DNA of 64,000 bases from Actinomycetota bacterium. GTDB lineage: Bacteria; Actinomycetota; Actinomycetes; Nanopelagicales; Nanopelagicaceae. The position numbers and the translations under genes are program-made. Every line of letters begins with the position of its first letter. Positions within the stretch are counted from its first letter, which is position 1. Below are positions 55,212-58,834 of the stretch, in pieces. The notes beneath the pieces were generated by a model, which searched no databases, had not been told where the DNA came from, and worked only from the letters and a program-made list of their open reading frames with translations. The stretch is taken from contig CANLHI010000002.1 in NCBI GenBank assembly GCA_947490845.1, forward strand, positions 23,958 to 87,957, in the 5' to 3' direction.

Positions 55212-55607
55212 ATGTTTTATGACCTAGATGGATCCATCGAGGATTCTGACCACCGTCTGTATTTGGCCAAAGTCCGCACCAAGAATGGCAAGCCAGGTAA
55301 GTACCAAGATCGCTCAAAGGCTGATCGCCCTAAGGACAAGCTCGCTGCAATCAAGGCTCAACGCTGCGACAAGTTCAAGATCACCGATATCGACATCGCT
55401 AAATCAATTGTGACAAGCGCTCGCTGGTCACGCGCCGCAGCTGCAGCCGAGGGCCGCACTTCAAAGCGCATGGAAGATCGTTGGTACATCTGTGAGAACT
55501 GCTCACACGGAAAAGCCAAGATCTATCACGTCTCAAAACTTAGCTCTGCAGAATACGCAGCTAAGTTTGAGGCATCAAAGTCAGGGGAGTTCTCACTTGC
55601 TGCCTAA
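55212..55607 (+). CDS. Small basic hypothetical protein with CxxC
   Basis: RWYICENCSHGKAKIYHVSK; overlaps start of next ORF. Confidence 0.5.
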   Translation: MFYDLDGSIEDSDHRLYLAKVRTKNGKPGKYQDRSKADRPKDKLAAIKAQRCDKFKITDIDIAKSIVTSARWSRAAAAAEGRTSKRMEDRWYICENCSHGKAKIYHVSKLSSAEYAAKFEASKSGEFSLAA

Positions 55608-56136
55608 TGACCCAACTCAGATAAAATCGATTTTTACCCAGATAATCGCACCTATCGCTGATGTTGAAGAGCGGATGTTTGCTCTCAACGTGCACCGTGG
55701 GATAACCCGCCTTGGATACAAAGCAGAACTTGTTGAGAGCAATGGTTATTTTTCTCATATACGAATTCCTGCAGCCGATCACTACTACATCGAAATCTCC
55801 GCAATTGAAGATGAAGATGGAGTCACACTTCCGCTAATGGTTTATGAAGAGTATGACGAAGATATTCGGCCACTTATGGAAAAAGCTGCGGGTATAAACG
55901 GTAGCTATCGCTACCAAGCCGATTTCGCTGTTCACTATGACGATTTCGATGCACAACGTATGCATGATCTCGGTCTATCCGAAGACGAAATATGTGGCCA
56001 GGCTTTTATCGGTGTAGTGGAGTACACCGCATACAACTTCCAGGAATTTATCCAGGGAGCGCTATATAAGTTCCAACGTGCATATGACGTAGAAATTTAC
56101 CCAGAGATGCGCGTATCCCAGCGCAAAGTCTTCTAA
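55597..56136 (+). CDS. Hypothetical acidic protein
   Basis: In-frame TTG at 55597 preceded by GGGGAG; overlaps stop of 55212 ORF, suggesting coupling; the longer 55492 start is less likely. Confidence 0.55.
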   Translation: MLPNDPTQIKSIFTQIIAPIADVEERMFALNVHRGITRLGYKAELVESNGYFSHIRIPAADHYYIEISAIEDEDGVTLPLMVYEEYDEDIRPLMEKAAGINGSYRYQADFAVHYDDFDAQRMHDLGLSEDEICGQAFIGVVEYTAYNFQEFIQGALYKFQRAYDVEIYPEMRVSQRKVF

Positions 56137-56148
56137 GGAAGGAGACCC

Positions 56149-56469
56149 ATGCAAACAACATCAACCTACAAACGAACAGAAAAGATAACGAGGTACACCA
56201 TTTCAACTCCACTGATCTCACACAAGAACTCCAGCGACCAACACGAGGTCTTCATCACCTTGGGCAATGGCCGCAGCATCAACATCCCCAAGAACGGCTC
56301 TTACCGGGTGCACACTTCCGGAGTCCTTGAGGTAAACCTTGAAGCCACCACCACTTATTACGCGCAAGGCGAGTGGCTAAAGATCAAAGACACCAATCAG
56401 ACCAAGATGCTCAAGCATTTCCAGGATGGTGCAAATACTCAATCCGCCGACATTATTTCCCTGAGCTGA
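56149..56469 (+). CDS. Hypothetical protein
   Basis: 106 aa, AAGGAGG RBS upstream. Confidence 0.55.
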   Translation: MQTTSTYKRTEKITRYTISTPLISHKNSSDQHEVFITLGNGRSINIPKNGSYRVHTSGVLEVNLEATTTYYAQGEWLKIKDTNQTKMLKHFQDGANTQSADIISLS

Positions 56470-56472
56470 TCA

Positions 56473-57312
56473 ATGAATCATTTCAACGATGACACTACAG
56501 CTGTAAATCTCGGGATTATTAACCATACTGATGCAATGGACTCTGAGATGGAAAAAGGGTTGGTGCTCGCTGCTGATCATCCGTTCCTTGTACTAAAGGA
56601 AGGCTTCCATCAAAAACCTGAACTAAGCAGCGAAGTCGAAACAGCAATGCGAGGCGTTTTAACTCAACTGAACCCTTCTGATCCAGGAGCCAGAATGGGA
56701 TTTGGCGGTGCCTACGAATGGATAATGGCTATAGCTTGCTGCGTTTCTGGACTGCAGACAGTTCCTGGAGGTCATTCAGAAAAAGGTTTTGACTTACTCG
56801 AATACGGAAATAGTTTGCAAGGGCTTTGGTCTCTCAAGAGTTCTGCGCAACCGAAACCGTCAGGTGAAATACGTCTTAAAAATAAAATGTCCTCCGCTAC
56901 AAGTACGAGAAATAGCCCACAGAGTTATCAAACACCAACCGTGTTTATAGCTCCCTACTTACCGGGTATTACTTATTTTGATCCAAGAATCGCTCCCAGA
57001 TATGCAAGTCGAATCGAACAGAATGATGAAGCGGTTACCATAAAGGCCACATTAACTAGGCAGTTTGCATTAGAGAACCCAGAATGCGTTATTCCCTTCA
57101 ATGCACCAGAAAATCCAGGATCTGCAAATCAGGTATGGCAATTAGATGTTGTAACGTCAATTCTAACTTCTGGAACATATCCAAACTTAGGTCCAATTAT
57201 GTCTGAAATGAAGAAGAACGCTGCCACAGTCCAATATTTAAAGAATCAACATGACCGAGGGCATATAGATAAAGGAACTCTCGATACGCTACTTACAAAT
57301 TTAGAAAACTGA
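56473..57312 (+). CDS. Candidate type II restriction endonuclease partner (PD-(D/E)XK-like)
   Basis: GFDLLEYGNSLQGLWSLKSSAQPKPSGEIRLKNK resembles an RE catalytic core (D ... xxK); ends 1 nt from a convergent C5 methyltransferase. Confidence 0.45.
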   Translation: MNHFNDDTTAVNLGIINHTDAMDSEMEKGLVLAADHPFLVLKEGFHQKPELSSEVETAMRGVLTQLNPSDPGARMGFGGAYEWIMAIACCVSGLQTVPGGHSEKGFDLLEYGNSLQGLWSLKSSAQPKPSGEIRLKNKMSSATSTRNSPQSYQTPTVFIAPYLPGITYFDPRIAPRYASRIEQNDEAVTIKATLTRQFALENPECVIPFNAPENPGSANQVWQLDVVTSILTSGTYPNLGPIMSEMKKNAATVQYLKNQHDRGHIDKGTLDTLLTNLEN

Positions 57313-57313
57313 T

Positions 57314-58708
57314 CTAACCTTCTAAATTAACAATTCTTGGGGTGAAATTTTTTTTGTCGGCTAATGTTTCGCGAAAAGCATGCGACTTGAATTCAAGCAG
57401 TTCCGCCTCAGGAGAATTTGGTGCGCTAAGAATCGCCTTCGTAAGCGCTGGATAATTACCAAGCAAGTCAAGGTCTCTAATAACCAGAGATTTCATCACG
57501 TTATAGACAGCTCCGATATTTACAGCATTACCAAGTTGTTTGTATGAGAGCGAATCTCTTTGGTCGAGGAAATCAAACCACTCAGGGAAGCCCTGCAATC
57601 TTGCGGCTTCCCTGACTGATATTCGCCTCTTGCTCTTACCGATAACCGAGGTTTGCGTTATAGCGACGAGAGCAGGGACGTATGTAGCCTTTTTTGCCCT
57701 TATTCCAGAAGGCCGGAAATGAAGAATCGTTTGAGCGATTCCTTTCGCGTCTTGGGCTTGCCATTCAAATTTTCTTCGGCTTGGAGGGAAATGCGAAAGA
57801 TAGTTGTACTTTTTTAGCCAAGCATCTAAAACCTTTTTGTTATCGGTATAAAGCTCAGAATTCTTGCGGAGAAATATCTCTTTCCACTTGGGAGTTCCAT
57901 AGGGGATATCAAGATTTTTTGCTATTTTCCATTCATCTACCCAGATTGGGAATCCAGGTAGATTTTTGCCGTCATTATTTTCTCGGTAAATTTGTACAAA
58001 CTCATTCCAGGCATCTAGCCACTCAATTTCTGATTTTGAAAGTTTCAAATCAGCCTTATCTTTTGTTGACATTAAATCAAGTGGTAGGTCTGATGCCAAT
58101 TTCCACTTCCGTGGATTCCAATCGGCTTCAAATTGCTCTTTTGACGGAAGAGAGGGCTCTTCGTGAAGTCGCTTCGCTCCGCTATTCAACCTGGTAGCCG
58201 CAATGAACACTCGTTCGCGAACTTGTGGTCGCCCCCCAAACGAAGGATGGATGCGATGAGGAGATACTACAAAGGGCTTCGAACTAACTCGGTATCCAAG
58301 TTCCCGCAAAGTTTGAATGATTACTTGCCATTCGTGGGCGTGCCTTGGGCCTGCGATATTTCTTACATTTTCAAGTATTACTAATTTTGGTTTTCTAACC
58401 TCAATAATCTTTGCGATATTCCAGAACAGCGTCCCACGCGCCTCCTCCATCCCTTTTTGCTTGCCAGATTTACTAAATGGTTGGCATGGAAAACCGCCTA
58501 CTAGAACATCATGGTCCGGAACTTCCATGGTGACGTCGTTCGCAGCGAGTGTTATGTCGCCTTGAGGTTCAATACCCCAATTTCTCAAGTAGATTCGGGC
58601 TGCCGCCTTATCAATTTCTGAGGCATAAACACACTCTCCACCAAGAGCACCTAGCGCACCATGGAATCCTCCGATTCCTGCGAATAGGTCGACGAATTTA
58701 AAAGTCAT
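57314..58708 (-). CDS. DNA (cytosine-5-)-methyltransferase
   Basis: Motif I FVDLFAGIGGFHGALGALGGECVYASEID, motif IV GGFPCQPFSKSGKQKG, motif VI LVILENVRNI, motif VIII RPQVRERVFIAA, motif X QLGNAVNIGAVYNVMK. Confidence 0.96.
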   Translation of the reverse strand: MTFKFVDLFAGIGGFHGALGALGGECVYASEIDKAAARIYLRNWGIEPQGDITLAANDVTMEVPDHDVLVGGFPCQPFSKSGKQKGMEEARGTLFWNIAKIIEVRKPKLVILENVRNIAGPRHAHEWQVIIQTLRELGYRVSSKPFVVSPHRIHPSFGGRPQVRERVFIAATRLNSGAKRLHEEPSLPSKEQFEADWNPRKWKLASDLPLDLMSTKDKADLKLSKSEIEWLDAWNEFVQIYRENNDGKNLPGFPIWVDEWKIAKNLDIPYGTPKWKEIFLRKNSELYTDNKKVLDAWLKKYNYLSHFPPSRRKFEWQAQDAKGIAQTILHFRPSGIRAKKATYVPALVAITQTSVIGKSKRRISVREAARLQGFPEWFDFLDQRDSLSYKQLGNAVNIGAVYNVMKSLVIRDLDLLGNYPALTKAILSAPNSPEAELLEFKSHAFRETLADKKNFTPRIVNLEG

Positions 58709-58834
58709 AGTCGAAGCTTATCTCGCCCTACTGACAAAACTTGGGATTGGGCAATTTGGTGCGAAGTTTCGCACGCGCAACTCACTAAGTAAGATTCACC
58801 CACTACTTAACCCAACAGAAAGCAGCCCCCACCC

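Follow-up and report, generated by a model that had tools for sequence, protein, structure and literature searches.

A candidate restriction-modification module with a DNA-damage-type methyltransferase promoter in an actinobacterial genome

The window, the whole 64,000-nt stretch of actinobacterial DNA analyzed here, probably carries a two-gene, Type II-like restriction-modification (R-M) module. A C5 cytosine methyltransferase (M) would be expressed from a RecA-NDp promoter, and the convergent open reading frame, ORF279, would be its restriction endonuclease (R). The combined explanation is one that we consider rather better than an even bet, and it draws on the anatomy and conservation of the gene pair, on the partner genes that related methyltransferases carry and on a conserved promoter box before M.

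RESULTS

Anatomy of the gene pair

The two genes are arranged tail-to-tail, stop to stop, with 1 nt between them (Table 1), as the sequence-only reading of this DNA had described. By its sequence, M is a full-length, complete C5 cytosine methyltransferase with predicted DNA specificity and activity. It matches Pfam DNA_methylase (1.1e-73, residues 3–408), TIGR00675 of NCBIfam (9.7e-63) and the PADLOC model DruM2 (PDLC00034; 1.7e-177), and GFPCQPFS, LENV, RPQVRERVF and QLGNAV are all present in its translation. Searches of Pfam, NCBIfam, PADLOC, PHROGs and the PDB sequences gave no significant match for ORF279, described earlier as unannotated; PDB matches to death-associated protein kinases (E 0.07–1.3) were rejected as chance. 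The 279-aa extent first given to it is the longest frame, and its true start is probably at residue 22, because both relatives with intact copies align from that residue, with ATGGA there in all three genomes and CATACT before it. The homologue in one of them (G026) is 258 aa long.

The pair has a lower GC content than its flanks. Three small unnamed ORFs (131, 214 and 106 aa; window 55212–56469) lie on the same strand as ORF279, the last of which stops 3 nt before the longest ORF279 start; none had a full-length counterpart in the relatives' loci that were searched. At the other end, between M and a glutaredoxin-like gene, the inverted repeat GTGCGAAGTTTCGCAC (58759–58774) stands where the homology of the M leader ends.

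Table 1. Positions in the window of the two genes, the candidate active-site residues and the methyltransferase promoter
Feature	Position	Strand	Remarks
ORF279, candidate restriction endonuclease	56473..57312	+	279 aa; no family match
ORF279, probable true CDS	56536-57312	+	258 aa
E82, candidate motif I residue	56716..56718	+	predicted helix; from translation; kept in G039 remnant too
D107 (GFDL), candidate motif II residue	56791..56793	+	kept in G039 remnant too
S120-L-K122, candidate motif III	56830..56838	+	Ser for the usual acid
E132, possible relocated carboxylate	56866..56868	+	K-x9-E
C5 cytosine DNA methyltransferase (M)	57314..58708	-	464 aa; Pfam, NCBIfam, PADLOC
M leader, homologous to G026 and G142	58709..58755	-	sequence comparison
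RecA-NDp/PafBC-type promoter box, putative, TTGTCAGTAGGGCGAGATAAGCT	58715..58737	-	6 nt before M ATG; published consensus

Relatives and conservation

Intact ORF279 genes are found in two other genomes of the same bacterial family (G026 and G142; 79–81% identity). In both, the gene is again tail-to-tail with an M, which is 84–85% identical to the window's M, so that every intact ORF279 found (3/3) is paired with an M of this type. In the three-genome comparison, synonymous change is saturated and non-synonymous change is low for both genes, which indicates that ORF279 and M are both under strong purifying selection and that the pair is maintained. The flanks on the ORF279 side differ among the three genomes. 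In the favored explanation, the module would have been acquired horizontally.

A truncated ORF279 remnant (G039, L011 8035–8367; 43% over its conserved part) adjoins a Schlafen-type helicase gene and a UvrD-like helicase gene, and no M was found near it in the stretches read. Among 398 genomes of the phylum outside the family, the only ORF279 homologue was one weak broken fragment, and none was found in viral contigs, phages or plasmids.

Druantia-like context

In both relatives (G026 and G142), the genes for DruF, DruE and DruK diverge from M, and the pair adjoins this Druantia-like operon (L007 1093–12943; L009 4172–16046). The C-terminal part of DruF in these operons matches DruL4, and the protein resembles a fusion of DruF with DruL that combines type II and type IV Druantia features. 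Neither this neighborhood nor the DNA-damage-type promoter of M was part of the sequence-only reading.

The pair could accordingly be read as a remnant or module of a larger Druantia-like island, with M as DruM, ORF279 as an extra component, and DruF, DruE and DruK lost from the window. Besides the adjacency in both relatives, such an origin would fit the failure to find DruE in any other of the 295 genomes searched in the order, the DruM2 match of M, the box before DruF, which is the same as the M box in both loci, and the homology of the M leader, which stops where the relatives have the divergent DruF promoter. On its own, the DruM2 match is not enough to class the window as a Druantia system, because the model gives several Ms that lack Druantia genes scores (612–618 bits) no lower than those of the Ms of this pair (588–597 bits); PDLC00034 is not specific for Druantia. 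DruF, DruE and DruK are absent beside the pair in the window, which fails the definition of Druantia type II by DruM, DruF, DruG and DruE (PMC13316683; PMC8565338), and DruE was not found in the window's genome (assembly 79% complete). The pair is also unlike a decaying remnant, because it is intact and shows low non-synonymous change against its relatives. We consider an island origin unlikely. Counting against the R-M explanation, only three intact ORF279 copies were found, and because two of them stand beside DruF-DruE-DruK, the functional unit may be larger than the pair.

The promoter of the methyltransferase

The box before M fits the RecA-NDp consensus, tTGTCRgtg-8nt-TAnnnT (PMC5656591), except at two bases outside TTGTCR and TAnnnT, and PafBC motif variants of M. 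tuberculosis include TGTCAG-N10-TA-N3-T (PMC8151990). A search pattern that let two positions be A or T placed the box at the same position in all 10 close M leaders, with a relaxed form in an eleventh (L031), and also ahead of DruF in the two Druantia-linked loci; it is absent from the leaders of ORF279 and of two partner genes described below (the 242-aa family and the 325-aa gene). A spacing of 11 yielded 12 box matches versus 0–2 at other spacings. The promoter of M is probably leaderless, and the end of the leader homology gives an approximate outer edge of the module. A scan of the pair for consensus promoters and terminators returned nothing.

The genome of the window contains one full-pattern match, at M. 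The promoter class is general but rare, because 31 other genomes have 0–4 matches each (0–2 for a reversed control), some of them genomes in which no M turned up. This occurrence both with and without M is a point against the favored explanation. The window's genome also encodes a tandem pair of WYL-domain genes (G000:C3), which we take as a PafB/PafC-like pair from their WYL match and tandem arrangement rather than from a PafBC-specific model. RecA was not found in the window's own assembly (79% complete), and the recA control was therefore taken from the same genus: in G103 and G016 the box precedes recA, next to an SOS-like box, in support of a working RecA-NDp box in this lineage.

The conserved leader might instead be a site of M autoregulation, or an ordinary promoter, and not a PafBC target. 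Across these loci M is what stays constant, and the sole full-pattern match of its own genome stands before it, as autoregulation would have it. The box and its spacing nevertheless agree with the published consensus (PMC8151990; PMC5656591), the box occurs where no M was found, and PafB/PafC-like genes are present. Because of the published consensus and the recA control, we favor a RecA-NDp/PafBC-type promoter and give the two alternatives a low probability.

The exchangeable partner slot

Ms of this type occur in 13/200 genomes of the family, and the contents of the convergent slot were counted only where the neighborhood of M was readable. The slot holds ORF279 at 3 loci, a 242-aa family at 4 loci directly and at 2 more with one gene between, a 325-aa orphan at 1 locus and a Z1 helicase at 2; in G262, whose M is more distant, an HNH gene occupies it. 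One M (L035) is an exception, with neighbors on the same strand and not convergent. The 242-aa family (L028 5344–6066, L034 6450–7172, L029 13777–14511, L030 6422–7150, L032 12735–13463 and L015 1–450) has D83 and E101-x-K103. Its predicted model (pTM 0.80), whose topology is our own reading from the order of secondary structures alone, makes it a candidate PD-(D/E)XK-like family, and it is probably another undescribed family of restriction endonucleases. The target-recognition region of the window's M aligns without gaps with those of the Ms linked to this family (52–58% identity).

The 325-aa orphan, found in one genome only (L033 5915–6892, convergent with M), contains KGWDYQFEGEHFSHK, which by eye resembles KGFDLLEY...WSLK of ORF279. 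ORF279 has no detectable homology to either the 325-aa or the 242-aa partners. Near more distant Ms (L047, L048 and L050), Vsr-like mismatch nuclease genes were read from translations, and the M at L047 has an HNH gene in convergent orientation.

Our main argument for ORF279 as a candidate nuclease is that candidate nucleases occupy this slot again and again in sibling loci. Together with the tail-to-tail linkage of all intact copies, this supports the pairing proposed by the sequence-only reading, and ORF279 is likely to be the restriction partner of M.

The candidate active site of ORF279

The sequence-only reading had also suggested that ORF279 could contain a PD-(D/E)XK core with Ser in place of the usual acidic residue before xK. 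The stretch concerned, GFDLLEYGNSLQGLWSLKSSAQPK, is present (residues 105–128), and E82, D107, S120-x-K122 and E132 are invariant in 3/3 full-length copies; truncation has removed S120-L-K122 from the G039 remnant. Searches of Pfam, NCBIfam, PADLOC and the PDB sequences gave no profile-level similarity to PD-(D/E)XK proteins. The AlphaFold model, one of the checks proposed for this assignment, is unusable (pLDDT 37.9) and gives no fold evidence. The motif D-x10-14-[DES]-x-K appears in 39% of shuffles and is weak evidence alone. A version with Hjc spacing and hydrophobic neighbors turns up in 0.03–0.1% of shuffles; of 205 real ORFs, the three ORF279 copies alone have it. These values are only suggestive, because the pattern was designed with the sequence already in view. 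A PD-(D/E)XK-type core is plausible for ORF279, with precedents for the relocated carboxylate given below.

That M is effectively solitary, with ORF279 a linked gene of another role (regulator, accessory or immunity protein), would suit the empty profile searches, the unusable model and the weak motif, but it is quite improbable given that the two genes are linked tail-to-tail in three settings whose flanks differ, and that candidate nucleases use the same slot in sibling loci.

DISCUSSION

Proposed mechanism and significance

In the R-M mechanism that we propose, M would methylate a cytosine within a specific site and ORF279 would most likely cut the unmethylated site as its R partner, probably by means of a PD-(D/E)XK-type core in which the third acidic residue has moved or been lost. 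The RecA-NDp (PafBC-type) promoter would drive M, so that DNA damage would bring more methylation and no more restriction, and the raised level of M would protect the host whenever its DNA is broken, by R or otherwise. One source of the damage could be R, cutting host sites that are under-methylated; another could be repair synthesis that leaves unmethylated DNA. The protection and restriction steps are drawn from gene anatomy, and damage-inducible methylation as self-protection from the promoter sequence alone. Palindrome avoidance in the window pointed to no word specific to it; the lack of an avoided site there counts against the proposal.

How restriction systems avoid killing their hosts is an old question, and the usual answers are C proteins or autorepression of the methylase. 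A methylase controlled by the DNA-damage activator of the host would, if true, be a direct feedback from damage to protection. A limited search of the open-access literature found no description of a DNA-damage-type methylase promoter in R-M systems. More tentatively, and with somewhat less than even confidence, we propose a class of Type II-like R-M modules in streamlined actinobacteria in which the methylase but not the nuclease is wired to PafBC, self-inflicted breaks lead to extra methylation, the partner slot is freely exchanged, ORF279 is a new endonuclease family, and the adjoining Druantia-like operon of relatives has the same promoter type. ORF279 is a candidate for such a family, and an exchangeable slot beside one methylase type offers a route to endonuclease families that similarity searches miss.

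Comparison with known systems

Among Hjc-type PD-(D/E)XK nucleases, the active-site residues of Hjc are E9, D33, E46 and K48, and the E-x24-D-x12-(S)-x-K of ORF279 fits their spacing (PMC1913061); ORF279 differs in its third acid, a Ser, and in lacking a profile match. Relocated carboxylates (PD-XXK-E) have been described for Cfr10I, NgoMIV and others (PMC551604) and for BsaWI, with K165-x9-D175 (PMC4652773). Like these enzymes, ORF279 has an Asp and a Lys at plausible positions and a Ser before xK, and its E132 may take the K-x9 position that D175 fills in BsaWI. Unlike them, it has a D-to-K spacing of 14 residues, versus 21–53 in the CCGG family (PMC4652773), and it shares no detectable sequence similarity with Cfr10I, NgoMIV or BsaWI.

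As for Druantia types II and IV, the window has an M that matches the nonspecific DruM2 model, and in its relatives DruF, DruE and DruK adjoin the pair; the window itself differs in having none of the three, and in an ORF279 that matches no PADLOC model. The RecA-NDp/PafBC regulon is resembled in the box before M, in the tandem WYL genes and in the boxed recA of the two same-genus genomes; the difference is its target, which here would be the methylase of a restriction system, as read from sequence.

Type II R-M systems with a C5 methyltransferase are the model for the favored explanation: two compact genes, a complete methyltransferase, a convergent partner of typical R size, a module that appears mobile between genomes and a partner gene exchanged among related Ms. 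The window's pair departs from them in that its partner, a candidate R, belongs to no described family, and in that its M carries a putative DNA-damage-type promoter.
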